This document shows positions 5,867 to 35,119 of a stretch of 64,000 bases of DNA, one piece after another; position 1 is the stretch's first letter, and each line of letters starts with the position of its first letter. Under the pieces are notes generated by a model. That model made no database searches, was not told the origin of the DNA, and saw only the letters and a program-made list of their open reading frames with translations. The position numbers and the translations under genes are program-made. The stretch covers positions 682,001 through 746,000 of the forward strand of contig JARKND010000005.1 in NCBI GenBank assembly GCA_029309925.1, in the 5' to 3' direction. The DNA is from Fulvivirgaceae bacterium JP3-4. Lineage in GTDB: Bacteria > Bacteroidota > Bacteroidia > Cytophagales > Cyclobacteriaceae.

Positions 5867-5960
5867 AAGATCCAAAGACCAAATCCCAAAAAACAATTCA
5901 AGCCTATTTCACAGCCTGGGCTTGAAACTTGGAGCTTGGATTTTGGATCTTGGACCTTGG
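5867..5960. repeat. Heptanucleotide-unit inverted repeat (H1)
   Basis: The left arm (5867-5901) is made of five 7-nt units of the form AARNNCC, for example AAGATCC and AAATCCC. The right arm (5926-5960) has five units of the form ANYTTGG, for example AACTTGG and ACCTTGG. The arms are roughly complementary and could pair across a 24-nt loop. The right arm ends directly next to the stop codon of the LytTR regulator gene (5961-5963). Confidence 0.8.
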
Positions 5961-6683
5961 CTAAAGACTCATCATATCCTTAAACTTCGCGGCCTGTCTT
6001 CGGGAAACTTCCACTTTGTCGCCACCTTTCAGGCGTACCATCAGGCCACCGTTGAACCACGGTTCGATGCCTTCTACCCAGCTGAGGTTTACAATATGTT
6101 TTCGGCTTGCGCGGAAGAAAGCGCGCTCGTCAAGTTTTTCATCGAGGGCGTTCAATGATTTGTGGATCATTGGCCGGTTGTTGTCGAAGTACACTTTGAT
6201 GTAGTTGCCATCCGATTCAAACATGCGCACGTTTGAAAGGCTGACAAACCAGCATCGGTCGCCATCCTTTACGAAAACCTGATCGTTGAGGCCGAGTTTT
6301 TTCTCACCGCCCTGCACGGCAACGGTTTTCGCGCGTTCCTTTTCTGACAGTTTTGAAATGGTTTCGGAGAGACGCTCAGCCTGGATCGGTTTCAGCAAAT
6401 AGTCGAGGGCGTTTACTTCGAACGCCTTGAGAGCAAACTCGTCATAGGCAGTAGTGAAAACAACCAGGGGCACCGAGTCGAGCATTTCGAGAAGTTGAAA
6501 GCCGGTTTTTCCCGGCATTTGAATATCAAGGAAGAGTAGGTCCGGATTCAACTCATTGACCATTTGCATGGCTTCATCAGCGTTCATCGCTTCGCCAACA
6601 ACTTCAATCATCGGATGGTCTTCAAGCAGTTTGATCAGTTCTTTTCTGGCCAAACGTTCATCATCCACGATTAATGCTCTCAT
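5961..6683 (-). CDS. LytTR-family response regulator
   Basis: A 240-aa two-component regulator. The N-terminal receiver domain (1-120) has the acidic pair D7/D8, the phospho-acceptor D53 in LLFLDIQMPG, and the conserved LKPI lysine near residue 98. The C-terminal LytTR DNA-binding domain (about 135-238) shows the typical FESDGNYIKVYF and FFRASRKHIVNL blocks. Family members bind direct repeats upstream of target operons after phosphorylation. Such genes usually sit beside a LytS/YpdA-type membrane kinase, but none is adjacent here, so the partner kinase must be encoded elsewhere. Confidence 0.92.
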   Translation of the reverse strand: MRALIVDDERLARKELIKLLEDHPMIEVVGEAMNADEAMQMVNELNPDLLFLDIQMPGKTGFQLLEMLDSVPLVVFTTAYDEFALKAFEVNALDYLLKPIQAERLSETISKLSEKERAKTVAVQGGEKKLGLNDQVFVKDGDRCWFVSLSNVRMFESDGNYIKVYFDNNRPMIHKSLNALDEKLDERAFFRASRKHIVNLSWVEGIEPWFNGGLMVRLKGGDKVEVSRRQAAKFKDMMSL

Positions 6684-6768
6684 AACAATTCCTGTTTACA
6701 ATTATCAAAATTAACCCAAATACGATTTTCGCCCCGTTTCAACAAAGGCCTTTTCCGCCAGCGGTCGG

Positions 6769-7017
6769 TCAGAGGTATTTGAACTGAAGCAAATATAAAA
6801 ACAAGATTCCGGTAGCAATCATCAGAATCCATGTGGTGATTACCAGTGGTTTCTTATACGCTAGCAGGCGGGGCTCAAACGTTGTTGCATTCAGTATGAA
6901 CGCAAGGCCGGCCGCACCATAGAGGCTGAACTCAAGCAGGTCGCCAACCACTGCCTGATAGATCGCGAAGGCCACAAATAGTCCGCCAAAAAGGTATTGT
7001 CTTCTGTATGAATTCAT
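6769..7017 (-). CDS. Small membrane protein downstream of uvrA
   Basis: An 82-aa protein with three hydrophobic stretches (about 9-25, 28-45 and 56-78) joined by short polar loops. It has no recognisable family. The start codon lies 1 nt after the uvrA stop, so it is very probably co-transcribed and translationally coupled with uvrA. A functional link to DNA repair is not supported by the sequence. Confidence 0.65.
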   Translation of the reverse strand: MNSYRRQYLFGGLFVAFAIYQAVVGDLLEFSLYGAAGLAFILNATTFEPRLLAYKKPLVITTWILMIATGILFLYLLQFKYL

Positions 7018-7018
7018 G

Positions 7019-9868
7019 CTAACCGAGTTCTGCTTTGAGGAATTTGCCAGTGAACGATGCGGGATTTTTTGCTACTTCTTCAGGCGTTCCCTTCGCCACG
7101 ATTTTTCCTCCCTTCGCTCCTCCTTCCGGACCAAGATCAATAATATAATCCGAAGACTTGATAACATCCATGTTGTGCTCGATCACCAGAACGGTGTTGC
7201 CTTTGTTCACCAGCTTCTGAAGCACATCGAGAAGGTGCGCGATATCTTGAAAGTGCAAACCTGTGGTCGGCTCATCGAGGATATAAAATGTTTTTCCAGT
7301 GTCCCGCTTAGAAAGTTCAGTCGCGAGTTTTACACGTTGTGCCTCGCCACCGGAAAGTGTCGTTGCGTGCTGACCGAGCGAAATATAATCAAGACCTACC
7401 TCTAGCAATGTTTGAATCTTCCGAAGGATCTTAGGCTGATTCTCGAAGAACGTGACAGCTTCTTCGACCGTCATGTCAAGCACATCAGAGATCGACTTGC
7501 CTTTAAAGCGAACTTCAAGTGTCTCGCGATTATAACGCTTGCCTTTACAGGTTTCGCAAGGCACGTAGATGTCTGGAAGGAATTCCATTTCGATCAAACG
7601 CAACCCGGCACCTTCGCAGGTTTCGCAGCGGCCACCTTTCACGTTGAATGAAAATCTTCCTGATTTGTATCCGCGGATTTTTGCTTCCGGCAATTGTGAA
7701 AACAGGTCGCGGATGTCTGTGAAAACACCGGTATAGGTTGCCGGATTCGAACGCGGAGTTCTTCCGATCGGTGACTGATCGACTTCAATTACTTTATCGA
7801 TAAGATCCAGCCCTTCGATGCTTTTATGTGTTAACGGCTCTGTACGCGAATTATAAAAATGTTTGTTAAGGATCGGGAACAACGTTTCGTGAATGAGTGT
7901 CGACTTCCCACTACCCGAAACGCCCGTAATACACGTCAGCGTCCCCAAAGGCACTTTCAGGTCGACATTTTTCAAATTGTTACCCGATGCGCCCGTAAGT
8001 TTCAGGCTCTCACCGCTTCCTTTTCTGCGTTCTTTCGAATAATTGATTCCAAGTTTGCCGCTAAGGTACTTGGCAGTGGTGCTGTTGTTCTTCAGGAATT
8101 TGTCAGGATCACCTTCAGCGACAACACTTCCTCCGTGTCTCCCGGCACCAGGCCCGATATCGATGATATAATCCGACTCGAGCATCATGTCTTTGTCGTG
8201 CTCGACAACAACTACCGAGTTTCCTAAATCGCGAAGGTCTTTCAGCGCTTTGATCAGTTTCACGTTGTCGCGCGCATGCAGGCCGATGCTCGGTTCGTCA
8301 AGAATGTATAACACACCGACAAGCTGCGTGCCGATCTGCGTAGCAAGGCGAATTCGCTGTGATTCACCACCACTCAATGTTCGGATGGGCCGATGCAGGT
8401 GGAGGTAGTCAAGTCCTACATCAAGCAAAAATCCGATACGCTTGCGAATCTCTTTTAATACCTCGGTAGCGATTACGCGCTGACGGTCATCAAGACGGTT
8501 TTCCAATCCTTCAAACCATCTTTGAAGATCATTGATGCCGAGCAGTGACAATTCCGAAATATTTTTGCCATCGATTTTAAAGTGCAGCGACTCTTTCTTC
8601 AATCTCGCTCCGTTGCACTCAGGACATGTTTTGATGATCGTAAAATCTTCAACCCAGTTCTTGATGGCTTCGGACCCTTCATCGCGCTGTTTCTCCAGAA
8701 AGTTGATGATACCCTCAAACTTCGTGTTCCACTCCGTGCCTGGATATTTTACAGATGCTACGCCTACCGGAACATCATCACCATAAAGCAGAACGTTGAT
8801 AACATCTTTGGGAATGCTTTTCAGTGGCGTGCTGAGGGTAAGTTTATATCGCTTGAGGATCGCCTCTATTTTTTTGAAGATCCAGATGTCGCGGTATTCG
8901 CCCAGCGGAAGGATGCCACCGCGGCTGATGCTTAGACTTTTATCGGGGATAACGGATTCTTCCGTGATCTCTTCAATTTGTCCGAGACCATTACATGTAG
9001 GACAAGCACCATAAGGAGAGTTGAATGAAAATGAGTTGGGGGCAGGCTCATCATATGACAGGCCGGTCTTCGGATCCATCAGGAATTTCGAAAAGTGATG
9101 AACTTTGTTGTTCTCCTCCATCACCATCATCACGCCTTTACCTTCCTTCAGCGACTTGTTGATTGACTGGCTGATGCGTGCACGGTCTTTTGGATCGGCA
9201 ATGATGCGGTCCATTACAATTTCAATATCGTGAATCTTGTAACGATCGACCTGCATCTTGGCAGTGATCTCCTGAACTTCACCATCCACGCGTACTTTCG
9301 TATAGCCTGATTTCCTGATTTGCTGGAACAACTCGCGATAATGACCCTTTCTTCCTTTGATCACCGGGGCGAGCAGAATGAGCTTCTTGCCTTTAAAGTT
9401 ATTTAATAGCGTATCGAGGATCTGATCTTCGGACTGGCGCACCATCTTGTCACCCGACAGGTATGAAAAAGCTTCTCCCGCTCTTGCATACAAGAGACGC
9501 ATGAAATCGTAGATCTCTGTTACAGTTCCGACAGTCGAGCGGGGGTTGCGTGATGTTGTCTTTTGTTCAATCGAGATTACAGGACTCAGTCCATTAATCT
9601 TGTCCACGTCCGGGCGCTCCAGGTTCCCCAGGAAACTTCTCGCATACGCGGAAAAGCTCTCCATATATCTGCGCTGTCCCTCTGCATAGATCGTATCAAA
9701 TGCAAGTGACGATTTGCCGCTTCCGCTGATTCCGGTAATGACCACCAGCTTATTGCGTGGAAAGGTTACGCTGATATTCTTAAGGTTGTGCTCGCGTGCA
9801 CCAACTACCTCTATATTTTCAAAGCCTGTATTATCGATGAATGTTTTTTCTGCTGATGCTTTGGCCAT
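7019..9868 (-). CDS. uvrA: Excinuclease ABC subunit A
   Basis: A 949-aa UvrA, the damage-sensing ATPase of nucleotide excision repair, which acts as a dimer with UvrB. There are two ABC ATPase modules: the first Walker [10 protein letters not shown], lies near residue 46, and the second, GVSGSGKST, near 645. Each has an ABC signature ([28 protein letters not shown]). The C-terminal zinc finger is intact, with CETC and CETC pairs spaced about 20 residues apart. The first half has CPTC and CPEC pairs. The length matches bacterial UvrA. An 82-aa membrane protein gene follows directly. Confidence 0.97.
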
Positions 9869-9914
9869 GGCCGGTAAATATACAAGTTATGATTTGACAA
9901 TGCGTGGCAATTTA

Positions 9915-9953
9915 TAGCCACCAAGGCACCAAGACGCGAAGGGCCACGAAGAA
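9915..9953. repeat. Single arm of the 8/9-nt repeat family
   Basis: TAGCCACCAAGGCACCAAG and the following GAAG-ended units match the left arm of the element at 4291-4380. No clear complementary right arm follows before the aldo/keto reductase gene, so this looks like a half-element. It lies in the 196-nt gap between uvrA and the aldo/keto reductase, which otherwise shows nothing I recognise. Confidence 0.6.
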
Positions 9954-10064
9954 ATCAAGATTCTTCTGACGGGCTGTGCGTTTGGTAACTCTGGACCACG
10001 CCAGAAGACATAACCGATAAAGAGACAGTAAAATTCCCTCTGTAAACACATTGTGAGTTATGCG

Positions 10065-10928
10065 CTATGCGACATCTCTTCCGGTGGCAGCTTTCAGCAT
10101 TTCGAACCAATCCTGTCTTTCAAGTGCTATCTCAACAGCCTTTGCACTTTCGATGATGCGCTCTGCCTGGGTTGTCCCGATGACAGGAAAAATATTTGCC
10201 GGATGGCGCATCAGCCAGGCGAGTGACAACTGGGTTTCAGTTGCGTTGTATTTTTCTTTCTTTGGCCACAATGGGCTTCCTGATGACATCAATTTTCCAC
10301 CACCCAAGGGTGACCAGGCCATCGGTGAGGTTTTATGTTTCTGTAAGACGTCAAGCGTTCCATCGAATAAACAGTCAAGCTTGCTGAGGGATAGCTCTAC
10401 CTGGTTTGTCACGAGCGGGAATGGGAGATAGCTTTGCAGCATCTCGAACTGTGTTGGAGTGAAATTCGACACACCGAAATGCAGCACCTTACCGTTTTGT
10501 TTTAACAGTCCAAAAGTTTCCGAGACTTCTTCTGCGTCCATGAGCGGGTCGGGTCGATGGATCAGGAGGAGATCAAGATAGTCGGTGCCAAGATTTTTCA
10601 GCGATGTGTCTACGGATGTCAGAATATGTTCCTTCGATGTGTCGTAATGCTTCACCCACGTGGAGGGCTGCTTTGACGAGAGCAGCTTGATTCCGCACTT
10701 CGTGATAAGCTGGATCTGCTGACGATTGATTGAGACTTTCTTCAGTGCATCACCGAAAAGTTTTTCGTTGTCGTAATCGCCATAGATATCAGCGTGATCG
10801 AACGAAGTGATGCCGGCATCAAGGCTTGTTCGAATAAGTTTTGCGACATCGACACTATTCCAGCGCCAGGCGCCTGCCACAATTTGTGACAGGGCCGGCC
10901 CTTTAAGATGAAGGTGTCTCTTCTCCAT
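10065..10928 (-). CDS. Aldo/keto reductase, YdhF-like
   Basis: A 287-aa NADPH-dependent oxidoreductase with the AKR barrel. The catalytic tetrad is visible: D44 and Y49 (FDHADIYGDY), K77 (LITKCGIK) and H124 (LLLIHRPDPLMD). The DHADIYG block, LLIHRPDPLMDAEEV and GKVLHFGVSNFTPTQFEML closely resemble E. coli YdhF, whose physiological substrate is unknown. It is cytoplasmic. It starts 1 nt after the stop of the NIPSNAP gene, forming a two-gene operon. Confidence 0.9.
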   Translation of the reverse strand: MEKRHLHLKGPALSQIVAGAWRWNSVDVAKLIRTSLDAGITSFDHADIYGDYDNEKLFGDALKKVSINRQQIQLITKCGIKLLSSKQPSTWVKHYDTSKEHILTSVDTSLKNLGTDYLDLLLIHRPDPLMDAEEVSETFGLLKQNGKVLHFGVSNFTPTQFEMLQSYLPFPLVTNQVELSLSKLDCLFDGTLDVLQKHKTSPMAWSPLGGGKLMSSGSPLWPKKEKYNATETQLSLAWLMRHPANIFPVIGTTQAERIIESAKAVEIALERQDWFEMLKAATGRDVA

Positions 10929-10929
10929 A

Positions 10930-11703
10930 TCAAACTTGCGAGTACGACAGCGGTTCGAGGAATGTCTTGTAAATTTTCGACACAGTGTTTGCGTATTGTG
11001 GATCTTTTACGATACGCTGCCAGTCCGGGTCTGGACCGAATGCCTTCCAAGCCTGATCCCGTTCTTCCATGTTTTTGAACGTCAGCATATACGTCAGGGC
11101 TGGCATGTTTGGTCCTGCAATGACTTCGCCAAAGAAAACCGGATTCAACTTCACGCGGGTAAAGATGGGAAACTCTTCATCGTTGAACATTTTGATCTTC
11201 CTTCTTACCGCATCTTCGCTATAGCCTTCGTATGTGCGCAGTTCAAAAATCCGCTGGCCGCTTGCGGCCGATATCATCTTCGGCAGACCATCGAAGGCGA
11301 TCATCAGCGATGAATGAAAGCGCGAATAGACCGCCTGCTCTACAGGGATCTTGTTGTATTCTGCGGCAGCCTCTGCAAATGCCTTATCTGTCTTCAAAGC
11401 ATTATTTACTTTCAGATAGTCGTTAAACGAAGCGTAGGGGATGAGGAGATAAAGTTTTGCCGGCTCCGATTTACTCATCTCCGAAAATGCTCCAACTTTT
11501 TTTACGCCAAGCCTGTTGAGTGCAGGGATCAACGCCTTGGACATAAAGTTGTCGAAGCCTGCCTGGCTGCGATTCATTTCATAAACACGCCACTCATAAA
11601 CTTCCTTGTCCTGTTGTTGCTGGGCAAAAGCTGGCGAAACAGCTGCAGCCGTGAGAGCAGATGTCGCCAATACTGATTTTTGAATAAACTTACGTCTTTC
11701 CAT
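10930..11703 (-). CDS. Exported NIPSNAP family protein
   Basis: A 257-aa protein with a twin-arginine-type signal (MERRKFIQKS, a hydrophobic alanine-rich core, and a likely cut after PAFA). Two NIPSNAP-like ferredoxin-fold domains follow: YEWRVYEMNRSQ at about 35 and FELRTYEGYSEDAVRRK at about 148. Each has the FxxRxY strand that marks the family, and the second includes KAFGPDPDWQRI. Bacterial NIPSNAP proteins are mostly uncharacterised. It is co-directional with the aldo/keto reductase, 1 nt apart. Confidence 0.85.
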   Translation of the reverse strand: MERRKFIQKSVLATSALTAAAVSPAFAQQQQDKEVYEWRVYEMNRSQAGFDNFMSKALIPALNRLGVKKVGAFSEMSKSEPAKLYLLIPYASFNDYLKVNNALKTDKAFAEAAAEYNKIPVEQAVYSRFHSSLMIAFDGLPKMISAASGQRIFELRTYEGYSEDAVRRKIKMFNDEEFPIFTRVKLNPVFFGEVIAGPNMPALTYMLTFKNMEERDQAWKAFGPDPDWQRIVKDPQYANTVSKIYKTFLEPLSYSQV

Positions 11704-11801
11704 TTGTTTAGAGTTGAGTTTCCAATTTATGCTTTGGCGGCCAGCGTTTGGAAATTTACTTCAGTTTTTATTTTGTGACCAAAATATCGGCAGCCGATAG
11801 C

Positions 11802-12128: not shown

Positions 12129-12135
12129 AATGGTT

Positions 12136-13317: not shown

Positions 13318-13365
13318 AGTTGACTTTGTGGAAAGTACGGAAAATGTTGTTTGAAATGAAAGCAG

Positions 13366-13483
13366 TTGGTTATTGGCGGTTGGCTTTTGGCCTTGGCATC
13401 TTTCTGCGCTTACTCTGTTTGTCGTTCAGTTGATTAATAGCAATAGAGTTTACGGTTCACAGCCAACATCCAACACCTGAAGC
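13366..13483. repeat. Heptanucleotide-unit repeat (H2) between divergent genes
   Basis: The left arm (13366-13396) consists of TTGG-led units such as TTGGTTA, TTGGCGG and TTGGCTT, spaced 7 nt apart with one 6-nt step. The right arm (13463-13483) has CCAACAT, CCAACAC and CTGAAGC. The arms are partly complementary across about 65 nt. They lie in the 295-nt region between the MFS carrier and the ECF sigma gene. Confidence 0.65.
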
Positions 13484-14197: not shown

Positions 14198-14209
14198 TAC
14201 TACTACTAT

Positions 14210-16983: not shown

Positions 16984-17065
16984 CAGGTCGCAGGTGCCAC
17001 CGATTCTAAGCAGTTGTATTTAGGACCAGAACCTGTAACCTGCGACTTGCAACCCGAAACTTGTC
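16984..17065. repeat. Heptanucleotide-unit inverted repeat (H3)
   Basis: The left arm has CAGGTCG and CAGGTGC (16984-16997). The right arm (17031-17065) has five 7-nt units of the form ACYYGNN, for example ACCTGTA, ACCTGCG and ACTTGCA. AGGTCGCAGGT on the left pairs with ACCTGCGACTT on the right. It lies between the divergent marR and MFS genes. The remainder of this 211-nt gap shows nothing else I recognise. Confidence 0.75.
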
Positions 17066-21816: not shown

Positions 21817-22160
21817 GCGGCCGTAAAAGTCGGGAATTATGCTTCACGCTGCAACCGATGAATGTTTCGCGTTTTGCTGAGAATGTTCAGCGTCTTCATG
21901 TATCGCTGCTCCAGGGCCGCATGGCCACTGGTATACTTCGTCCGGCCTGGACCGTATCCACACATGCCCATGCCAGGCCGAACATACCCTCAGGTCCTCC
22001 CGAAGTATACCGGAAAGATTCGAAATGCCGAGATTTCACGGTAAGGGCCAGGCTGACTACGTCTTATCCGAACCCATAGCTGACTGGAACCTTGAAGCTT
22101 GAAGCCTTTTCTTATCATACATCAATGCCCCGCCCTGCCCTTCGGCCTTACCTTTGATTC
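21817..22160. other. Intergenic region with nested palindrome and a short heptad run
   Basis: 344 nt between divergent genes. GGTATACTTCG (21930-21940) pairs with CGAAGTATACC (22001-22011), and inside it CGGCCTGG (21943-21950) pairs with CCAGGCCG (21973-21980). At 22087-22107 three 7-nt units follow: GAACCTT, GAAGCTT and GAAGCCT. A short open frame at 21858-22079 runs through the palindrome and has no protein-like features, so I do not call it a gene. Confidence 0.6.
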
Positions 22161-23081: not shown

Positions 23082-23612
23082 ATGAGCAAAACAAAATGGA
23101 CTCTTGATCCCGCACACAGTGAAGTGACGTTCAAGGTAAAACACATGATGATCACAAACGTGACCGGCCTGCTGACAGACTACACCATCGATGCCACAAC
23201 CGACACGGATGATTTTATCAATGCCGATATTAATTTCTCGGGCAAGCTTTCTTCGATCAACACCGGTAATGAGCAGCGCGATGCGCACCTTCGTTCAGCA
23301 GACTTCTTTGATGTCGACAAGAATAACGAAGTTACTTTCAAGTCAACTAAGGTTGAAAAAAGCGGTGGCGATCTCAAGCTTCATGGTAATCTGACAATTA
23401 AAGGAGTTACCAGGCCGATTGTACTCGATGTAGAATTCGGTGGAATCAACAAGGATCCCTGGGGAAATACAAAGGCGGGTTTCACCGTAACCGGAAAACT
23501 CAATCGCAAAGACTTCGGACTCAACTGGAACGCAGCGCTTGAGACCGGTGGCGTGCTGGTGAGTGATGATGTGAAGATCGCATCGGAGATCCAGCTCGTG
23601 AGAGCAGCGTAA
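23082..23612 (+). CDS. YceI family protein, cytoplasmic form
   Basis: A 176-aa protein that is a single YceI lipocalin-like barrel, the family that binds isoprenoid-type lipids. It begins directly with KTKWTLDPAHSEVTFKVKHMM, without a signal peptide. LHGNLTIKGVTRPIVLDVEFGG and KLNRKDFGLNWNAALETGG are the family's C-terminal blocks. A second, exported YceI gene lies 351 nt downstream. The paired YceI genes probably arose by duplication or serve two compartments. Confidence 0.92.
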   Translation: MSKTKWTLDPAHSEVTFKVKHMMITNVTGLLTDYTIDATTDTDDFINADINFSGKLSSINTGNEQRDAHLRSADFFDVDKNNEVTFKSTKVEKSGGDLKLHGNLTIKGVTRPIVLDVEFGGINKDPWGNTKAGFTVTGKLNRKDFGLNWNAALETGGVLVSDDVKIASEIQLVRAA

Positions 23613-23963
23613 GGGAGAGGCTGCAAGCTGCAAGCTGCAAGTCTTTGTAACAGCTGAGAAAGAAAGGCGGTCAGGTGGACGTAGAGGCCTTTCTCCGTGA
23701 AGCGTGCAGCGTGAGCCGTGAAGCCTGAATCGCAAACAAAAAATCCCATGTCACGATGGGATTTTTTGTTTCTGACCAGATCGCCTTTGCATTCCCTTCG
23801 CATTAGCTTGCAGCTTGTAGCCTGTAGCTTACAGCCTTCATTCACTACATCGTTTGCAGGAAAATATATTCCCCCTCGCGCTGCTTTCTTAACATTTGGT
23901 AAGAGAGAACTTATAATGTGGATGCACCTTTGTTCAACAATTGTAAACAATTCACACACAGAT
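23613..23963. repeat. Heptad-rich intergenic region (H5) between the two YceI genes
   Basis: Three heptad runs lie in 351 nt. Three identical GCTGCAA units are at 23620-23640. GTGAAGC-type units are at 23697-23731. Units TTGCAGC, TTGTAGC, CTGTAGC and TTACAGC are at 23808-23835. The first and third runs are complementary and enclose the second run and a hairpin terminator at 23738. The far end before the second YceI gene shows no further repeats. Confidence 0.75.
23738..23767. terminator. Bidirectional intrinsic terminator
   Basis: A perfect stem, AAAAAATCCCAT (23738-23749) with ATGGGATTTTTT (23756-23767), and a 6-nt loop. The T-run on both strands suits termination in either direction. It lies 126 nt after the first YceI gene. 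Confidence 0.8.
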
Positions 23964-24612: not shown

Positions 24613-24726
24613 TAGCCACAAGGCACCAGGACACGAAGCAACACGAAGAGCTTTGAGCTTGCTGACACCGATTAGGTTGAAATAAAATTCTTAGTGTTCC
24701 TTGGAGTTTTGGTGCATTAATGGCTA
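24613..24726. repeat. Inverted 8/9-nt-unit repeat
   Basis: Begins TAGCCACAAGGCACC with ACACGAAG-type units and ends with CTTAGTGTTCCTTGG ... TGGCTA, its imperfect complement. It has the same ends as the element at 4291-4380 but a longer and more divergent middle. It lies directly behind a hairpin terminator, as the 4291 copy does. Confidence 0.75.
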
Positions 24727-24762: not shown

Positions 24763-25002
24763 ATGAAGCAACGCGAAGTACAGGATCACAAGAATACAAA
24801 ATGGGTATGTGTAGAAGCTTTGTCAGGATTGTCTGACAATAGTTCGGAAGTTGCCGACAAGATCCAGGACAAGAATGGAAAAGTGCCGGTAGTATGTACG
24901 CCATCCGGTGGGGCGCAAACTGTGCGTATAAAAGTCAGCCCGGATTGGAATGAATCGCTGTCGGATGAAGAACTAGTGAGGGAAATAACCAATAATCAAT
25001 AA
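24763..25002 (+). CDS. Small conserved-looking protein of unknown function
   Basis: A 79-aa hydrophilic open frame. I do not recognise a family. The composition looks protein-like (TPSGGAQTVRIKV, then SLSDEELVREI), and no signal or membrane segment is present. The last residues, NNQ, are encoded by the left arm of a heptad repeat (24990-25017), as are the last residues of the convergent hemB on the other arm. An antisense frame over the same region is less protein-like. Confidence 0.55.
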   Translation: MKQREVQDHKNTKWVCVEALSGLSDNSSEVADKIQDKNGKVPVVCTPSGGAQTVRIKVSPDWNESLSDEELVREITNNQ

Positions 25003-25063
25003 TCAAATTCCAAACTGCGTTGTAGCGAATTTGAGATTTGATTATTGGTTATTGGAATTTGAC
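24990..25063. repeat. Heptanucleotide-unit inverted repeat (H6) shared with two gene ends
   Basis: The left arm (24990-25017) has CAATAAT twice, then CAAATTC and CAAACTG. The right arm (25029-25063) has ATTTGAG, ATTTGAT, TATTGGT, TATTGGA and ATTTGAC, all with a 7-nt step. The arms are complementary with an 11-nt loop. The left arm covers the stop of the small gene ending at 25002, and the right arm covers the stop of hemB at 25042. Confidence 0.85.
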
Positions 25064-26025
25064 CTCGCGAACTCTTTAGCAAAGTATGTCAGTATAACAT
25101 CCGCACCAGCACGTTTGATGCTGAGCAATGTCTCCTTCATCACGCGGTCACCGTCAAGCCATCCTTTCTGGGCTGCGGCCTTAATCATTGAATATTCTCC
25201 ACTCACATTGTACGCGGCAATGGGAAGATTTGAATTCGACTTCAACAGTTGAATAATGTCGAGGTATGCGAGCGCGGGTTTCACCATCAGGAAGTCTGCG
25301 CCTTCTTCTGTGTCCAATTCTGCCTCGATGAGCGCTTCACGTTTGTTAGCAGGATTCATCTGGTATGTTTTCTTGTCACCGAACTTTGGCGCAGAGTCTA
25401 ATGCATCGCGGAAAGGGTTGTAGAATCCGCTCGCATACTTTGCGGTGTAGCTCATGATGGAGACATCGGTGAATCCGTTTTTGTCAAGGAGGTTGCGGAT
25501 GTAGCCTACTCTTCCGTCCATCATGTCGGAAGGGCCGAGAATATCAATACCGGTTGCGGCCTGAGCCAGTGCCATCTTTCCGAGTATCTCAAGTGTTTCA
25601 TCATTGAGGATTTTCCCGTCCTGTACAAATCCATCATGCCCATCGGAGCTGTAAGGGTCCATGGCAACATCAGTCATCACGCAAGCTTCCGGAAAACGCT
25701 GCTTCACTTCTTTCAGAACTTTCAGGTAGAAGAAATTCTCATCGTAGCTTCTCGTTGCCGTCTTGTCCTTGTACTGATCCTCCACGGCAGGAAAAATATC
25801 GAAAGCTGTGATGCCCAGGGAAAGACATTCTTCAACCTCCTTCAGCATGAGATCGCCCGACAAGCGGAAAATTCCGGGCATACTGGAAACTTCAACCTTT
25901 TTGTTTCGGCCATCCAACAGAAATAAAGGAAAGATCAGGTCACTTGTTTTCACCTGTGTTTCCTCAACCATCGAACGTATGGCTTCTGACTTGCGGTTTC
26001 TTCTTGGTCGTCTGGTGTTTAACAT
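25042..26025 (-). CDS. hemB: Delta-aminolevulinic acid dehydratase (porphobilinogen synthase)
   Basis: Joins two 5-aminolevulinate molecules to porphobilinogen in tetrapyrrole synthesis. About 327 aa from the ATG at 26025 (MLNTRRPRRNRKS). A start 18 nt upstream is open but adds only MLSIHI. The two active-site lysines are in SYTAKYASGFYNPFRDA and MVKPALAYLDI. The metal loop reads DVAMDPYSSDGHDG, which matches the magnesium-type pattern (DxALDx(Y/F)x3G(H/Q)DG) and lacks the cysteines of zinc-dependent enzymes. The C-terminal SNSNNQ is encoded by a heptad repeat arm. Confidence 0.95.
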   Translation of the reverse strand: MLNTRRPRRNRKSEAIRSMVEETQVKTSDLIFPLFLLDGRNKKVEVSSMPGIFRLSGDLMLKEVEECLSLGITAFDIFPAVEDQYKDKTATRSYDENFFYLKVLKEVKQRFPEACVMTDVAMDPYSSDGHDGFVQDGKILNDETLEILGKMALAQAATGIDILGPSDMMDGRVGYIRNLLDKNGFTDVSIMSYTAKYASGFYNPFRDALDSAPKFGDKKTYQMNPANKREALIEAELDTEEGADFLMVKPALAYLDIIQLLKSNSNLPIAAYNVSGEYSMIKAAAQKGWLDGDRVMKETLLSIKRAGADVILTYFAKEFARSNSNNQ

Positions 26026-26058
26026 GATATGTATCGAAAGCAATTGGAGCCCGCAAAT

Positions 26059-26961: not shown

Positions 26962-27023
26962 ATCCGTGGGGTTGGACTAAATAAGTCTCGGCTCGTTCGA
27001 TAAAATTACAAATCCGGAAGTGA

Positions 27024-27833: not shown

Positions 27834-27908
27834 AAACGGTCAGATCCATTTGCTGCGAACATTCCACGATGAACGCGACTCAACGCAAGGTATGAACTCT
27901 GCTTCGAT

Positions 27909-28760: not shown

Positions 28761-28788
28761 GCCTTGTCAATCTTTGCAATATTGGAAA

Positions 28789-29829
28789 ATGGATCTTCAG
28801 CATCACCATCCGGAAAACATTTTTATGCAGCGCGCATTTGACCTTGCGCTGAACGGTGCCGGCTACGTGAGTCCCAATCCGCTCGTGGGTTGTGTCATTG
28901 TGCATAAGGGCACGATCATCGGTGAAGGCTATCACAAGAAATTCGGAGAGGCGCATGCCGAAGTCAACGCGGTGAATTCCGTTGGCGACAAATCCTTGCT
29001 GAGAGAGAGCACTGTGTACGTAACGCTTGAGCCATGCTCACATTTTGGCAAGACACCACCGTGCGCTGATCTGCTGGTCAGGCACGAGGTCAGGAAAGTG
29101 GTGATCGCGAATGTCGACTCCAATCCACTTGTTGGCGGAAAAGGAATCGCCAGGTTGAAAGCTGCAAGCATTGAAGTTGTCACCGGAGTGATGGAGGGGG
29201 AAGGACGAAACCTGAACAAACGTTTTTTTACATTCATCGAGCAAAAGCGTCCTTACATCATCCTTAAATGGGCACAGACATCGGATGGATTTATTGCGCG
29301 ATCAGATTTTGATTCGAAGTGGATCAGTAACGACCTGTCGCGACAACTGGTGCACCGGTGGCGGGCCGAGGAGGCGGCAATCCTTGTCGGGAAAAACACT
29401 GCGCTGTACGATGATCCGCAGCTGAACGTAAGACACTGGACAGGACCGGATCCCGTGCGCCTGATCCTCGATCGAAATCTTTCATTGCCATCTCATTTGA
29501 AAATTTTCACTGATCAGCGAAGGACAATCGTCTACAACCTTCACAAGACAGTGAGCGAAGGAAATGTTGAGTATGTAAAACTTGATAATGACTCGTTTAT
29601 TCAAGGTCTGCTTCAGAATCTCTATGAAAGAGGATTACAGTCCGTGATCATCGAAGGCGGCTCGAAAACACTCAGTGAATTTATTGAAACAAATCTATGG
29701 GATGAGGTCAGGGTGTTCACATCACCCACTCGCTTTGGTTCGGGAATCGCTGCTCCAAAAATTTCAGGCAGAATCGTTTCCGAAGAGAATATCGACACAG
29801 ATGTATTGAGAACCTACCAGCGAAGTTGA
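28789..29829 (+). CDS. ribD: Bifunctional diaminohydroxyphosphoribosylaminopyrimidine deaminase / reductase RibD
   Basis: Carries out the second and third steps of riboflavin synthesis. 346 aa from the ATG at 28789. The frame is open to 28621, but that part lies over prmC, and conservation starts at about FMQRAFDLALNGAGYVSPNP. The deaminase zinc ligands are H56 (HAE), C83 and C92 (PCSHFGKTPPC). The reductase domain (about 150-345) has RPYIILKWAQTSDGF and SVIIEGGSKTLSEFI. An alternative ATG at 28759 would overlap the prmC start codon by two nt. Confidence 0.94.
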   Translation: MDLQHHHPENIFMQRAFDLALNGAGYVSPNPLVGCVIVHKGTIIGEGYHKKFGEAHAEVNAVNSVGDKSLLRESTVYVTLEPCSHFGKTPPCADLLVRHEVRKVVIANVDSNPLVGGKGIARLKAASIEVVTGVMEGEGRNLNKRFFTFIEQKRPYIILKWAQTSDGFIARSDFDSKWISNDLSRQLVHRWRAEEAAILVGKNTALYDDPQLNVRHWTGPDPVRLILDRNLSLPSHLKIFTDQRRTIVYNLHKTVSEGNVEYVKLDNDSFIQGLLQNLYERGLQSVIIEGGSKTLSEFIETNLWDEVRVFTSPTRFGSGIAAPKISGRIVSEENIDTDVLRTYQRS

Positions 29830-29874
29830 GCTAAAAAATTCCAAATTGCATTTTAACTACCTTAGTTTCAAAAT

Positions 29875-29925
29875 TACTCCGCGCTCTCCGCGAACTCTCT
29901 CCGTGAGCTCCGCGGTGTGGATTTA
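29875..29925. repeat. 8/9-nt-unit repeat between ribD and cupin gene
   Basis: Units such as CTCCGCGCT and CTCCGCGAA, then CTCCGTGAG and CTCCGCGGT, about 9 nt each. It belongs by composition to the GCGGAG-type group seen at 43421, 44191 and 48219. It ends about 10 nt before the cupin start codon, in the 103-nt gap between ribD and the cupin gene. Confidence 0.6.
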
Positions 29926-29932
29926 ATATTTT

Positions 29933-30292
29933 ATGGAAAAAGTCGTTATCACAGAAAAGTTAAGCCAGTTCTCCGATCACTGGAATCCGCGGATCGTTGG
30001 CGAACTCAACGGTCAGCATGTTAAGGCAGTGAAATTACTCGGAGAATTCGTGTGGCACCACCACGATGAAGAAGACGAATTGTTCCTGGTGATCAAAGGC
30101 CAGCTCGCCATGGAGTTCCGCGACAAGACCGTAACTGTCAACCCGGGAGAATTCATCATCGTGCCGCGGAAAGTTGAACATCGTCCCGTGGCGAAAGAGG
30201 AAGTCCATATCCTGCTCTTTGAGCCTGCGGGTACGTTGAACACGGGAAACGTTGAAAATGAAAGGACGAAAAAGAATTTACAGAGAATTTAA
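29933..30292 (+). CDS. Cupin domain protein
   Basis: A 119-aa single cupin barrel. Motif 1 has metal-ligand residues in WHHHDEEDELFLVIKGQL (about 41-58), and motif 2 is PRKVEHRPVA. The HHHDEEDELF form is typical of a group often annotated as mannose-6-phosphate isomerase-like cupins, but the activity is unknown. The 3' end overlaps a convergent gene by 4 nt. Confidence 0.88.
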   Translation: MEKVVITEKLSQFSDHWNPRIVGELNGQHVKAVKLLGEFVWHHHDEEDELFLVIKGQLAMEFRDKTVTVNPGEFIIVPRKVEHRPVAKEEVHILLFEPAGTLNTGNVENERTKKNLQRI

Positions 30293-30612
30293 GACTTGAA
30301 GTCGTTCAGGGGGCGTACATCGTAATGAAAATGTGGCTGGAAACCCTGGAATGGCGCATCGATCTCAAATTGCATGATTACAGACAGATCCGGTAAATTG
30401 ATCAGCTTGTTATTTCGCTCGTCATTCAGCATTGCGCCCTTTTCGGTGACCAAAACAACCCTCATGTAATTGACAACCCACATTTCACCCAGCAACCTGT
30501 AACGCAGGCAGATATCCGGCCTTTTTTCACGCATGTCCGTCAGCAACCGCTTCAGTTCAAGCACTGAAATCAGGTTTTTGTTGGTTTCCAATATGTTCTC
30601 GGCACTTCTCAT
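30289..30612 (-). CDS. Hypothetical protein
   Basis: A 107-aa frame that I do not recognise. It looks like a small soluble alpha/beta protein: a helical N-terminus (LISVLELKRLLTDMREK), then strand-like segments (MWVVNYMRVVLVTEKGAML) and a C-terminus with FQPHFHYDV. Amino-acid composition is ordinary and no signal is visible. The tail-to-tail overlap of 4 nt with the cupin gene and the absence of a better frame support it modestly. The 223 nt upstream show no repeats or clear sites. Confidence 0.6.
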   Translation of the reverse strand: MRSAENILETNKNLISVLELKRLLTDMREKRPDICLRYRLLGEMWVVNYMRVVLVTEKGAMLNDERNNKLINLPDLSVIMQFEIDAPFQGFQPHFHYDVRPLNDFKS

Positions 30613-30835
30613 GTATCATTCAGGGTTATGGAAACGGCCAGGTCGATCAAAGCCTTTTTTAAAGGCCATATTTTTTCTAAGGGGAAAACAACACCAGCAG
30701 TAAAAACTCATGCCATAGCGGCTGTATCGTTTTACTTATATGATAAATCTCAAAATCGGCCGGTTTGGCTAAAATAATCCCCAACCTGAGGCGCAGATTT
30801 GTCGTAAATTGCATCAGGTCTTAAATATTTTTTTC

Positions 30836-31318
30836 ATGGCTGAGGAGCTTCTTGTTTCAACATCATCCGATAAAAAAGAAAAGTACAATACGCTTATCCC
30901 GCAGGTTGAGGCACTGACCAGTGGCGAGCCTGATCTCATTGCGAACCTTTCAAACATTGCTGCAGCGCTGCGGCAGACGATGGGATTTTTCTGGGTTGGA
31001 TTTTACCTCGTGAAAAATAATCAGCTTGTACTGGGACCGTTTCAGGGTCCCATAGCCTGTACACGTATCGACTTTGGAAAAGGTGTTTGTGGAGCATCAT
31101 GGAAAGAAAAGCGCACGATCCTGGTCCCCAATGTAGATGAGTTTCCGGGACACATTGCGTGCAGCTCAGCCTCGAAATCGGAAATTGTGTTACCAGCGTT
31201 TAAAAACGGAGAAGTTGCGCTCGTACTGGATGTTGACAGTGACCGCCTCAACGACTTTGATCACAACGACCAGGTTGCGCTCGAAAAAGTAATGCGCCAC
31301 ATCGAAAAACTTCTATAA
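30836..31318 (+). CDS. msrC: Free methionine-(R)-sulfoxide reductase, GAF type
   Basis: A 160-aa GAF-domain enzyme that reduces free methionine-R-sulfoxide. Cysteines C75, C85 and C109 (GPIACTRIDFGKGVCG, GHIACSSASKSEIVLP) have the same spacing as the three catalytic Cys of E. coli YebR (84, 94, 118). The frame is open to 30809, but the ATG at 30836 (MAEELLVSTS) fits the family N-terminus. It is followed after 6 nt by the MutS-like gene, so both are probably one operon. Confidence 0.93.
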   Translation: MAEELLVSTSSDKKEKYNTLIPQVEALTSGEPDLIANLSNIAAALRQTMGFFWVGFYLVKNNQLVLGPFQGPIACTRIDFGKGVCGASWKEKRTILVPNVDEFPGHIACSSASKSEIVLPAFKNGEVALVLDVDSDRLNDFDHNDQVALEKVMRHIEKLL

Positions 31319-31324
31319 CACTTC

Positions 31325-33115
31325 TTGATGTCGTCTAACGAACTCGCAGCCTTTTACGCAAAAAGGAAAGATGCCTTTTCCAGTCAGCTCGCGGACACAA
31401 CATCGCAGATCAATGTGATCTCGAACATCAGGCTTGGAATCGCCATAGTTTTTATCCTGCTGTTGTATTATGGTCTTCGCTACGATTCCGGATTTCTGAT
31501 CGTCTTGCCTGCACTGGTCGCGCTATTCGTTTTTCTTGTTCGAAAACATGCGGTGTTGTTCGATCTGAAAGTTCATCAGCAAAACCTCGTCAGGATCAAT
31601 GAAGAGGAGCTAAATGTTTTGAAGGGCGATACATCACAGCTAGACAGCGGGGCCGGGTTTGTTGATCCACACCATCCATACTCGCACGATCTCGATATTT
31701 TTGGCGCTGGCTCATTGTATCAGCATCTGAACCGCGCCAATACTATCATCGGCAGGAAAAAATTTGCCGATCGGCTATCTTCTCCACTTCAGTCAGCGGA
31801 TTCAATCCTTTCAAACCAGGAAGCAATTCGCGAAATGTCTTCGATGGCCGACTTCCGTCAGGATTTCCAGGCTGCGGGCAAAGAGATAGATGAAAAGCCG
31901 CAGGATCGCGAACAGCTTGTGGCATGGCTTAAGCATGCTCCTTTCCTTTACGGGAAAAAAAGCTATAAAATCATTTTGGTTGTCGTTCCGGTTGTGACGC
32001 TGGTGCTCCTGATAGCGGCATTTTTCGACATCCGTTTCCGCCCGTTTGTAATTCTGATGGCAATTTTTCAGTGGGGATTTCTTGGACTCCATGTCAAGAA
32101 GGTAAATGCATTCCACGACTACATCAGTCGCAAGAAAAATATACTGCAGAAATATGCGCAGCTGCTGCATTATGTTCAGAAGGAAAAATTCGAGTCACAG
32201 CTTCTGAAAGACCATTGGGAAAAAGCGCAGCATGCCCACGTTAAAGTCAGGAAGCTGGCGTCACTCGTGTATGCGCTCGATGCGCGCATGAATGCGATGA
32301 CCTCAATTTTTACAAACAGTTTGCTGCTGTATGATCTTCAATGCATTTACCGGCTCGAAAAGTGGAAAGAAGAGAATTCACATAATCTGGAAATGTGGCT
32401 GGACACAGTGAGCGATATAGAAGTATTGAACGGCTTCAGCACTTTTCACTTCAATCATCAGTGGTTCAGCTTCCCGCAGATACATGATCAGCTCAGCATT
32501 TCGGCAAAGGAGCTAGGTCATCCGCTGATCAAACCAGAAGAATGCGTGGCCAATGATTTCTCCATCGGCAACGGGCCAACGGTGTTGATCGTCACGGGTG
32601 CCAACATGGCTGGCAAAAGCACTTTCCTCAGGACAATCGGTATTAATTTGATTCTTGCGTTAAACGGAGCCTCGGTAAGTGCGAAGCGTTTTGCATGCCC
32701 GGTGATCAATCTGAGAACCGGTATGCGCACCGCGGATTCCCTGAAGGACCATCAATCTTATTTCTATGCAGAGCTCGATCGACTCAAAGGCATCATGGAT
32801 GAGTTGAGACGTGATGTTCCGCTGCTGATCCTGCTCGATGAAATCCTGAAAGGAACGAACTCGACCGACAAGCAGGCCGGCTCCATTGCGCTGGTGAAGC
32901 AACTTCTCCCACATCCATGCCTTGCAATCATTGCCACGCACGATCTCGCGCTGGGCAACCTCGAAACCGAATATCCCGGTAAGGTTAAGAACTATTGTTT
33001 TGAAGCAAACATTGAAAATGACCAGTTGTCTTTCGACTACAAGTTGAAACAAGGGCTTGCTACCAAAATGAATGCAACCTTTTTAATGAAGAAAATGGGC
33101 ATCATCCCTTCCTAA
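31325..33115 (+). CDS. Membrane-anchored MutS-family ATPase
   Basis: A 596-aa protein. The N-terminal part has two hydrophobic segments (about 36-75) and a second pair near 213-255. A helical lever region and a MutS-type ATPase follow. Walker A is TGANMAGKSTFLRTIG near 425-440, Walker B is LLILLDEILKGTNSTDKQ, and IIATHDLALG follows. The N-terminal mismatch-binding domains of MutS are absent. Such proteins are found in Bacteroidota and are annotated as MutS-like, but a repair role is unproven. The membrane segments argue against a classical role in mismatch repair. Confidence 0.85.
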   Translation: MMSSNELAAFYAKRKDAFSSQLADTTSQINVISNIRLGIAIVFILLLYYGLRYDSGFLIVLPALVALFVFLVRKHAVLFDLKVHQQNLVRINEEELNVLKGDTSQLDSGAGFVDPHHPYSHDLDIFGAGSLYQHLNRANTIIGRKKFADRLSSPLQSADSILSNQEAIREMSSMADFRQDFQAAGKEIDEKPQDREQLVAWLKHAPFLYGKKSYKIILVVVPVVTLVLLIAAFFDIRFRPFVILMAIFQWGFLGLHVKKVNAFHDYISRKKNILQKYAQLLHYVQKEKFESQLLKDHWEKAQHAHVKVRKLASLVYALDARMNAMTSIFTNSLLLYDLQCIYRLEKWKEENSHNLEMWLDTVSDIEVLNGFSTFHFNHQWFSFPQIHDQLSISAKELGHPLIKPEECVANDFSIGNGPTVLIVTGANMAGKSTFLRTIGINLILALNGASVSAKRFACPVINLRTGMRTADSLKDHQSYFYAELDRLKGIMDELRRDVPLLILLDEILKGTNSTDKQAGSIALVKQLLPHPCLAIIATHDLALGNLETEYPGKVKNYCFEANIENDQLSFDYKLKQGLATKMNATFLMKKMGIIPS

Positions 33116-33155
33116 CTTTCAATTGAATCAGTAAATTGTTTTCATAAGCAATCTT

Positions 33156-33842
33156 ATGAAAACACTTTTCGCCTGCGCTTTTTGCTTCTACTTTACCGCA
33201 ACATTTTCACAAACAGACAGAGAGAAATTTGTAGGACGCTGGGTAAGCAGCGATACCGGTTATGAAATGGAGTGCAACTTCAAAGCCGATGGCAGTGGCG
33301 TTGTGGATGGTGATGTTGTGAAGTGGTCGGCAAGTGGTGGCAAACTCACCGTAGAGCTTGACGGTGACAAACAGGTTTACAACTACACATTTAACGCAAA
33401 TGGATTCCGCGTTTCCGGTGGTGACCTCGAGATGCCATTGAATTTTCGCAAAGCGGGCAGCAACAATGCTTCAGCGCAGAACAATCAGAATTCAAACGCA
33501 GGTGGAAAGAAGGTTGATCAATCCCTTGTCGGGAAATGGTGTTATGTGAACGTCACCTCGAACTATAGCAGCAGTGCGGAGGAATGCATCACGATCAATT
33601 CAAACGGGACGTACGAGTATTATTCGGAGCGCTCCACAAGCGGAAGCAATGGAAGTACCGCATCTCAGAACTCAGACACCGGCACGTGGTGGATTGAAGG
33701 CAATCGCGTTTATTATCGGTCTCAGTCGCAAGGCGAGGGCTCCTATGAACTTGTAAAACAGAATCATCCGAAGACAGGCGATCCGATGATCGTGCTTGAC
33801 GGAACAGCATACGTCACCTACTACAAAAAATCACCCTGGTAA
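33156..33842 (+). CDS. Secreted beta-rich protein of unknown function
   Basis: A 228-aa protein with a signal peptide (MKTLFACAFCFYFTATFSQ). Two beta-rich halves are visible, each starting with a VGRW/VGKW block (VGRWVSSDTGYEM; LVGKWCYVNVT) as in lipocalin-like domains. An Asn/Ser/Gly-rich linker separates them (about 104-125). The second half has a serine-rich loop (SGSNGSTASQNSDTGTWWIEG). The function is unknown. It precedes the HisC-like gene by 3 nt, suggesting co-transcription. Confidence 0.7.
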   Translation: MKTLFACAFCFYFTATFSQTDREKFVGRWVSSDTGYEMECNFKADGSGVVDGDVVKWSASGGKLTVELDGDKQVYNYTFNANGFRVSGGDLEMPLNFRKAGSNNASAQNNQNSNAGGKKVDQSLVGKWCYVNVTSNYSSSAEECITINSNGTYEYYSERSTSGSNGSTASQNSDTGTWWIEGNRVYYRSQSQGEGSYELVKQNHPKTGDPMIVLDGTAYVTYYKKSPW

Positions 33843-33845
33843 TTT

Positions 33846-34985
33846 ATGAACGCAAGAAGAGAATGGCTTAAGACCACACTGGCACTCGCAGCAGGTTTGC
33901 CGCTTGGCGCAGGCATGGCGAACCAATTGATGGCTGCTCCAATGAGTGAAGCAGAAAAGAATTTTTTCGGCAGGAGCCCTTTGTTGCCACCGATGAAGAT
34001 TCGTCTGGGGTCAAATGAAAATCCATATGGCCCATCCGAAAAAGCAAGGCAGGCTATTCAGCAGGCGCTGTCAGAAGGAAACCGATATCCATTCCAGGTT
34101 GTAAATGATTTTAAAGAAACACTGGCAGCGCATGAAGGTGTGACTGCCGATCACATTCTTGTAGGTGCCGGCTCGGGCGATTTGCTTTGCGCGACCGGTG
34201 CAGCATTTTCACTCGAGGGCGGAAGAATTCTTTCGGGCTTCCCGACATTTCCCATGCTGATGAATTACGCGGAGGTTTTTAAAACTACCTGGGATAAAGT
34301 AAACGTTAATGATGAGCTTGTCTATGATTACGAAGCGGTAGCGGGACAGATCAAACCAGACACGCGACTCGTGTTTATATGCAATCCGAATAATCCAACC
34401 GGAACACTTGTCAATCCGGGTGTGGTCAAGTCGTTTACAGAAGAGGTTTCGAAAAAAGTTACCGTGTTCTCCGATGAGGCATATCTGGAATTTCTCCAAC
34501 CATCACAGCAAGTGTCGATGATTGATTTCGTAAAAAAGGGCGCCAATGTGATCGTGTCAAGAACGTTCTCAAAAATACACGGGCTCGCAGGGCTGCGCAT
34601 CGGCTATATTGTTGCGAAGCCAGACATTATTCGGAAGATTCAGCGCAATCATCCGGGGATACCGAATAATCAGCTTGCGATTGCCGCAGCGAAGGCAAGC
34701 CTGGGCGATAAGGATTTTATGGATATGTCACGCAGGAAAAACGCAGAAGCCCGCAAGATCCTGACTGACTATCTCGACAAGAAAGGTTACTTCTACGGAA
34801 AGTCGCACACGAACTTTGTCATGTTCGATTCAAAATCTGACGCACAGGGAAAACTGAGCCAGCTTGCCCAGCAGGGTATCGCTATCCGCGTGTGGGATTA
34901 TAAGGGAATGCAGTGGTTGAGGGTGAGCGTGGGGACTAGTGAGGAAATGAAGGCGTTTGTTAAAGCGTTTGACCAGATAGCTTGA
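33846..34985 (+). CDS. Exported HisC-like PLP aminotransferase
   Basis: A 379-aa class I/II aminotransferase resembling histidinol-phosphate aminotransferase: LGSNENPYGPS near 55, FICNPNNPTGTLV, and the PLP lysine in SRTFSKIHGLAGLRIGY near residue 242. Unlike HisC it starts with a twin-arginine signal (MNARREWLKTTLALAAG, with an alanine-rich core) and a mature part after QLMAAP. It is therefore probably a periplasmic PLP enzyme and not the histidine pathway HisC. The substrate is unknown. It begins 3 nt after the secreted-protein gene. Confidence 0.85.
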   Translation: MNARREWLKTTLALAAGLPLGAGMANQLMAAPMSEAEKNFFGRSPLLPPMKIRLGSNENPYGPSEKARQAIQQALSEGNRYPFQVVNDFKETLAAHEGVTADHILVGAGSGDLLCATGAAFSLEGGRILSGFPTFPMLMNYAEVFKTTWDKVNVNDELVYDYEAVAGQIKPDTRLVFICNPNNPTGTLVNPGVVKSFTEEVSKKVTVFSDEAYLEFLQPSQQVSMIDFVKKGANVIVSRTFSKIHGLAGLRIGYIVAKPDIIRKIQRNHPGIPNNQLAIAAAKASLGDKDFMDMSRRKNAEARKILTDYLDKKGYFYGKSHTNFVMFDSKSDAQGKLSQLAQQGIAIRVWDYKGMQWLRVSVGTSEEMKAFVKAFDQIA

Positions 34986-34986
34986 T

Positions 34987-35119
34987 TTTAGATTTAAGAA
35001 TTTAGAATTAAGATTTTTGGAGTAGCGTTGAATTTGAATATTGACCAACAACTTCGGAAACGGAATCATCCCAGCTACACGACTCTAAAAATCTAAAATC
35101 TCAAATCTAAAATCTTAAA
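34987..35119. repeat. Heptanucleotide-unit inverted repeat (H7) filling a convergent junction
   Basis: The left arm (34987-35014) has units of the form TTWAGAW, for example TTTAGAT and TTAAGAA. The right arm (35084-35119) has units such as TCTAAAA, TCTCAAA and TCTTAAA, mostly at 7-nt steps with one extra A. The left arm begins 1 nt after the aminotransferase stop codon, and the right arm ends 4 nt before the cysteine desulfurase stop codon. The two arms are complementary across about 70 nt. Confidence 0.8.

Follow-up and report, generated by a model that had tools for sequence, protein, structure and literature searches.

The stretch analysed here, referred to as the window, comprises 64,000 nucleotides of Fulvivirgaceae bacterium JP3-4 (positions 682001-746000 of contig C5 in its 5.8 Mb genome, G000), and its intergenic DNA carries arrays of short degenerate tandem units, several of which are paired as the inverted arms of hairpins (Table 1). 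From the letters of the window alone, seven loci had been listed as runs with a 7-nt period, six of them with a second, complementary run. Each was tested singly against 300 dinucleotide shuffles, for which the lowest attainable P is 0.003. The period is clear at five loci and weak at the two others (13366 and 16984); complementary arms are strong at four, nominal at one (16984/17038) and unsupported at two (13365 and 22087). Over the 34 gaps of the window (6446 bp of intergenic DNA), we counted 6 lag-7 segments vs 0.08 in shuffled sequence at the lower threshold, and 5 vs 0.02 at the next. No Rfam match in the window rose above the gathering score.

Table 1. Arrays and hairpins of the window, in window positions. 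"Tested at" gives the position under which a locus was tested; P values come from the 300 shuffles per locus.
Extent	Feature and unit	Tested at	Arms or runs	Lag-7 P	Inverted-repeat P	Surroundings and remarks
4292-4379	Octamer-class hairpin, CTTCGTGCCTTGGTGTCTTGGTGGCT		array 4354-4379			convergent gap; arm score 16
5866-5960	Heptamer hairpin, YTTGGAN	5866-5960	arms 5866-5889 and 5929-5952; array 5921-5960	0.003	0.003	downstream of the stop of gene 5961-6683 (-); right arm abuts the end of the adjoining open reading frame (ORF)
13365-13474	Weak heptamer run, TTGGNNN	13366	run 13365-13391; possible arm 13459-13474	0.013	0.11	
16984-17065	Weak degenerate hairpin	16984	arms 16984-16995 and 17038-17049	0.023	0.02	
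22084-22105	Lone array, CTTGAAG	22087	no partner arm found	0.003	0.77	GCTTGMA-family member; exact 15-mer among the family places listed
23610-23835	Heptamer hairpin, GCTGCAA / GCTTGYA	23620	arms 23610-23636 and 23805-23831	0.003	0.003	spacer with extra array 23696-23729 and terminator-like hairpin about 23738-23768
24984-25055	Heptamer hairpin, TCAATAA / TTGATTA	24990	arms 24984-25010 and 25027-25053	0.003	0.003	second arm overlaps the end of HemB ORF 25042-26043 (-)
34985-35120	Heptamer hairpin, ATTTTAG / AAAATCT	34987	arms 34985-35028 and 35077-35120	0.003	0.003	fills gap 34986-35123 between two convergent genes
43425-43447	Octamer array, CGCGGAGG		single arm			score 10

We then counted intergenic self-match segments at lags 2-30 in 864 kb of G000 (the window together with 400 kb of C1 and 200 kb each of C4 and C5), with genes called by our own ORF-scoring script and not by a published caller. 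Lag 7 yielded 78 segments vs 0.0 in shuffles and lag 8 yielded 25 vs 0.6, with harmonics at lags 14, 21 and 28 and at 16 and 24, the remaining lags giving at most 4 each; coding DNA gave only 6 vs 1 at lag 7. An 8-nt class thus coexists with the 7-nt class. A reverse-complement arm scoring at least 12 was present within 400 bp of 80 of the 124 non-coding arrays, vs 1 of 124 with shuffled flanks, and a direct copy lay near 31 of them. The sequence-only reading had looked to the genome for an excess of the period and of complementary arms over shuffles, and both are present in these 864 kb. Of 136 unfiltered arrays, 12 overlapped an ORF partially and 10 almost completely. With score minima of 14 for coding arrays and 12 for arms, 53 non-redundant hairpins were retained, with spacers of 1-325 nt (median 51).

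The phyla sampled were Bacteroidota, plus E. coli as a control, and no lag-7 or lag-8 arrays were found in 150 kb of E. coli K-12. Around HemB, 80 Bacteroidota loci (233 kb of intergenic DNA) gave 29 vs 2.4 at lag 7, 17 vs 1.4 at lag 8 and 10 vs 2.2 at lag 9; a 7- or 8-nt array, with varied units, occurs in 23 of the 80. The congener G002 holds 36 lag-7 arrays in 220 kb, built from units of its own (GTTGCCR, AAGGAGT, GTACGAG), and none was found in 100 kb of the congener G001, in 100 kb of G009, a member of the same family, or in 40 kb of G012. Arrays are thus present (G002) or absent (G001) within one genus.

The units had been described as differing completely from locus to locus, the period and the foldback alone being retained. 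Their recurrence with unrelated unit sequences was confirmed, both within G000 and across Bacteroidota. The complete difference between loci holds roughly inside the window but not across the genome, where the arms fall into sequence families. In G000 we named by eye the heptamer families GCTTGMA, ACCTTGA, ATCTTGG, ATTTTAG, GCCTAAT and ACGAATG, and the octamer families GTTGATAC, GTGCTCAT and CATTGGCA. Allowing at most 2 mismatches, CTTGAAGCTTGAAGC occurs at 282 places in G000 vs 35 for the reversed control. Two sister species, G345 and G475, were also studied; they are 93.3% identical over 432 kb and belong to the genus of the Mucilaginibacter locus L082, which is located in G475. In the latter genome CTTGATTCTTGATTC occurs, with the same tolerance, at 326 places vs 14 for the control. 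The arms moreover have a fixed polarity, the left arm being better matched to a left arm in 108 of the 111 G000 locus pairs with a good arm match. Unit order was assessed by comparing exact matches between arrays with 40 unit permutations. Matches of at least 24 nt involved 16 of 70 arrays in G345 (permuted mean 6.5, maximum 11), 12 of 66 in G475 (5.0, maximum 8) and 8 of 48 in G002 (2.8, maximum 7); in G000, matches of at least 17 nt involved 66 of 125 arrays (55.6, maximum 64). Loci therefore have unit order in common beyond what permuting the units produces, and sequence is retained along with shape. The spacers of G000 gave weak matches in 3 locus pairs among 43 loops.

The sister species hold a family, called X, whose arm is the 28-mer ATGAACTATGAACCATCAACTATGAACT, four units (unit GTTCATR) in a fixed order. 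With at most 2 mismatches this arm occurs at 54 places in G345, 48 in G475, 0 in G000 and 0 for the reversed control. Twenty places were fetched, 16 picked as visible pairs and 4 as lone arms, and 3 of the 4 "lone" arms proved to have a partner, at 3-4 mismatches. Pairing and arm ends were examined on 17 elements, leaving out L260 and L262 (orthologues of L256 and L252) and L266 (no left arm). The arm ends are sharp in this family, the flanks prolonging the pairing by 0 nt in 14 of the 17 elements and by 1 nt in 3, and no target-site duplication was detected: direct flank repeats of 2 nt were found in 2 of the 17 (1.9 expected) and of 5 nt in 1 (0.13 expected), and none reached 6 nt. Spacers measure 53-126 nt and are mostly unrelated, the exceptions being two orthologue pairs, five spacers with a common nested TTGRYTC array and a few nested X words. 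Eleven of the 17 elements lie within 30 nt of a stop codon closing an open stretch of at least 35 codons.

Placement behind stop codons is likewise found in G000. Among its 53 hairpins, 30 lie between tandem, 18 between convergent and 5 between divergent genes; counted by gaps, arrays are held by 24 of 61 convergent, 49 of 239 tandem and 9 of 77 divergent ones, and by 2 of 3 of unknown context. Tandem hairpins start at most 28 nt from the upstream stop codon in 27 of 30 cases. Where a tandem locus leaves at least 30 positions free, 16 of 18 do so, and uniform placement would give 5.4. Several convergent hairpins abut both stop codons. Some gap limits are uncertain, since the ORF called downstream is overlapped by the hairpin in 8 of the 30 tandem cases. 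The initial description was right about the 7-nt period, and overlooked the 8-nt class, the siting behind stop codons and the unit families common to several loci.

Partner permutation showed that pairing is mostly not locus-specific, five of seven groups having no own-partner preference. These are the G000 groups of 8, 5, 4 and 3 hairpins (P 0.93, 0.15, 0.21 and 1.0) and family X, in which own partners form 439 Watson-Crick pairs vs 439.8 for permuted ones.

The two sister species offered 273 usable orthologous gaps, once sister gaps longer than 1500 nt or with weak flanks had been dropped. Arrays are held by 53 of these: 24 gaps align with arrays in both species, 14 align with an over-threshold array in one, and 15 are unalignable. 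Among gaps of at least 60 nt, 15 of 51 with arrays are diverged vs 26 of 164 without (P 0.04). In three gaps family X stands in one sister and a different family (GWCCATR) in the other, and by eye several gaps show a heptamer hairpin in one sister and an unrelated hairpin in the other. A single-arm difference was found in gap A11 79897 (near G345:C11:279,900, with its counterpart at G475:C34:104736, one of 11 exact 28-mer copies listed in G475). Over the 110 nt up to the right arm, which take in left arm and spacer, the two species show 3 differences; the right arm itself is an octamer array in G345 and the exact family X 28-mer in G475. Both versions start with ATGAACT and finish with AACT, so that short common words could have primed copying; the mismatched arms of G475 suggest that it is the side that changed. 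Hypermutation of the arms was considered and rejected, 108 of 1621 arm positions differing vs 315 of 5471 others (P 0.19).

Our preferred interpretation, which we hold with somewhat better than even confidence, is that these hairpins are miniature REPIN-like inverted repeats, dispersed over the genome, whose arms consist of heptamers or octamers and which spread as other arrays are copied. In an element, two inverted arms of roughly 20-80 nt would enclose a spacer that is mostly peculiar to the locus, and each arm would comprise about 3-11 degenerate units of 7 or 8 nt. Many families could coexist in one genome, their members having in common the arm and, in the clearest case, the unit order, but mostly not the spacer. 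They lie chiefly right behind stop codons, where insertion would be least harmful. We infer from the one clear single-arm case and from the common unit order that arms spread by short copying events; these might be primed by common unit words, through template switching or ectopic conversion, possibly with the help of some enzyme. New families would arise by polymerase slippage that favours 7-nt steps and lengthens a hairpin arm, and any effect on RNA 3' ends would be secondary. Only tentatively do we go further and suppose that the class is defined by its geometry and not by its sequence, that arms of about 30 nt are the unit of copying, that families turn over rapidly and that the driver is something other than a RAYT, present or absent within a genus.

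Several observations weigh against elements spread by copying. Turnover is not universal: where a gap aligns and both sisters carry arrays, the array strings are identical in 11 of 24. The single-arm case was compared without an outgroup and so gives no direction of change. Of the 11 one-sided insertions between the sisters, none shows a heptamer element cleanly added to an empty site; a heptamer array is present in only one, A11 103271, which as an insertion is not clean. At the length of at least 24 nt, unit order in G000 is not common beyond permutation (5 vs 4.9 of 125 arrays). Several family X spacers have nested arrays in common, as well as short degenerate words adjoining the inner ends of the arms. 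The own arm outscores the arms of every other locus in 14 of the 53 G000 hairpins, and the own partner is preferred in a G000 group of 6 (P 0.0175), in a mixed group of 18 (P < 0.001, a value that subfamilies may inflate) and over all 44 G000 hairpins permuted together (P < 0.001). A mobilising gene was not found in a search made for Y1_Tnp only. Finally, the hairpins fold strongly, which is also expected under an RNA function.

Such a function is the first alternative, and in our view a rather unlikely one. Selection would maintain long foldbacks downstream of genes, where they would terminate or protect transcripts, and the arrays would arise by slippage because repeated units pair in many registers. 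The siting behind stops and between convergent genes agrees with this, as does the folding of the hairpins up to 260 nt, where z fell below -2 in 47 of 50 (median -5.3 relative to shuffles). Between the sisters, 28 gaps of at most 400 nt are strongly diverged, and 11 of them carry hairpins of unrelated arms in both species, whereas the hairpin rate among the full 234 gaps is 32%; from the single-species rates of 18/28 and 17/28, however, 10.9 would be expected by chance. The ratio of G-U to A-C mismatches is 28:17 in tandem loci, in favour of this alternative, but 17:24 in convergent and 9:8 in divergent ones. The possibility that the spacer loops are native terminators was rejected, terminator-like inner hairpins being present in 1 of 47 spacers vs 0.6 expected. 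An RNA function moreover leaves the near-identical arms at many places unexplained, and the congener G001 does without arrays in the 100 kb scanned. The 3'-end RNA role proposed in the sequence-only reading thus matches position and fold, but the pairing of a locus's own arms is not kept in five of the seven groups.

It is improbable that the elements are REPINs proper, mobilised by a RAYT (a Y1 transposase) encoded in the genome, although their architecture, their location and the absence of target duplication resemble those given in excerpts of PMC3116915 and PMC3733652. In the first eight genomes searched, Y1_Tnp matches were obtained in all, strong in the array-bearing G000, G002, G345 and G475 and none strong in the array-free G001 and G009. 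This apparent link, drawn from 6 genomes of known array status, vanished on 50, and G012, the strongest match of the first set, has no array in its 40 kb. The 50 were those of the 80 genomes with the longest loci, and a match was taken as strong at E <= 1e-15: it was found in 8 of 12 array-positive vs 25 of 38 array-negative genomes, a coarse test because array status was judged from some 21 kb of each genome. The co-occurring RAYT-like gene that had been suggested therefore shows no association with the arrays at this resolution. Four of the 12 array-positive genomes have no match at that E value, among the genomes without a strong match Aquirufa (G516) carries three arrays, and arrays lie near 2 of 10 Y1 loci vs about 1.9 estimated from array densities. 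Direct reading of the 28-nt arm of family X revealed neither a GTAG nor a CGTC tag.

Template-copying terminal synthesis, in which a telomerase- or retron-like polymerase would extend the two 3' ends at a break by short units, appears distinctly improbable. It would account for inverted arms around unrelated spacers, for a constant period of 7-8 nt with changing sequence and for the degenerate unit positions, but a unit order fixed over 28 nt in many copies requires a long template or copying. The common order thus makes a unit-adding, template-reading polymerase, one of the origins initially put forward, less likely. Plain slippage, with every locus expanding its own chance 7-mer and no dispersal, is very improbable and is refuted as sole cause by the 28-mer arm at 54 and 48 places, with the genome-wide unit families and the inverted arms of the same family also speaking against it, even though whole-unit indels between the sisters (9 of the 52 indels in arms and 4 of the 70 outside them, P 0.07), the 8-, 7- and 16-nt gaps within one octamer hairpin, and the abundance of heptanucleotide repeats, the commonest class in most genomes, together with the polymerase-contact idea (Mrazek 2007, as cited in an excerpt of PMC4679880) all fit it. 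In the copied elements that we favour, the 7-nt step may reflect this heptamer bias of bacterial slippage.

Other observations were made alongside. In the window, a heptamer arm of the hairpin at 24984-25055 encodes the last residues of the HemB frame (333 aa), which Pfam ALAD covers over residues 11-327. Its three closest homologues match up to residues 326-329 and a few others up to 331-333; among the 80 loci listed, from which records of its own genome were possibly excluded, the nearest are those of Pseudochryseolinea flava, Chryseolinea sp. and Dawidia soli. At about 24620-24712, CACAAGGCACCAGGACACGAAG and a roughly complementary CTTAGTGTTCCTTGGAGTTTTGGTGC around a spacer form, by eye, an octamer-like hairpin below the array threshold, and the 48-bp stretch 21947-21994 is a further dispersed repeat: one contig of the congener G001 (G001:C120) carries it three times, at 85-88% identity. 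A second hairpin class, with CCCCGGTAGGGAGG- and CCTCTCC-type arms, differs between the Mucilaginibacter sisters at aligned sites; it occurs at L144-L146 (G345:C4, about 112611, 126781 and 143512) and L221-L238 (G475, gap A11 90528), and AT-rich direct repeats (TTTAA, TAATTTAA) flank the element at two sites. At G345:C4:69784-70125 (L142), a Y1-transposase gene with adjoining GGCTTTAGCC-type hairpins, missing at the same place in G475, forms a RAYT/REP-like arrangement beside heptamer elements.

If the proposed interpretation is true, many intergenic hairpins of Bacteroidota would owe their presence to the turnover of very small elements, constant in shape and period but with sequences that are exchanged, and not to regulatory design. 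The origin and replacement of repeat families could then be measured between sister species, and the on/off contrast inside one genus makes the search for a responsible gene feasible. Caution would also be called for before such 3' hairpins are read as conserved terminators, and arms can extend into the ends of coding genes.

Among known systems, the STRRs of cyanobacteria are heptamer tandem repeats. Among the papers listed by searches of the open-licence PMC literature we found no description of arrays such as these, which does not prove absence. Excerpts of PMC4679880 report TAACTGA heptamer repeats, direct repeats of one fixed unit, between the genes of Beggiatoaceae, Cyanobacteria and five Bacteroidetes, mostly just upstream of start codons in a Beggiatoaceae genome. 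In two of the five Bacteroidetes these gaps also contain direct repeats of different heptamers, and close relatives lack them; another Bacteroidetes genome has one heptamer set directly after a stop codon. Unlike the TAACTGA repeats so described, the units here are degenerate and of many sequences, form inverted arms and stand behind stop codons. BrickBuilt of Porphyromonas gingivalis, as an excerpt of PMC4596501 presents it, is a Bacteroidota miniature inverted-repeat transposable element (MITE) with an internal 23-nt tandem repeat and short inverted ends resembling those of insertion sequences. It is therefore likewise a miniature inverted-repeat element with tandem repeats in this phylum, but in the present elements it is the arms that are made of tandem repeats, around a mostly unique interior. 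From a MITE of a DDE transposon the elements differ in having no target-site duplication (family X) and no common interior beyond nested arrays, arm-side words and orthologues. The closest likeness is to REPINs, or REP doublets, which in excerpts of PMC3116915 and PMC3733652 are hairpin-forming pairs of inverted repeats around a less conserved spacer, in many dispersed copies, REPs lying mostly behind genes and with several types per genome. The arrays similarly form inverted pairs of a dispersed repeat that fold into hairpins, lie behind genes and belong to several types per genome. They differ in that their arms are arrays of 7- or 8-nt units from many families per genome, that their spacers are mostly unrelated and variable in length, and that family X lacks the compensatory pairing given as common in the REPIN paper excerpted. 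As to movement as a unit, the sisters show 15 of 53 array gaps unalignable, one single-arm difference and no clean insertion. Because a link to RAYT-type transposases was not seen in our coarse test, and because family X has neither tag nor stem compensation, we term these elements REPIN-like and not REPINs.

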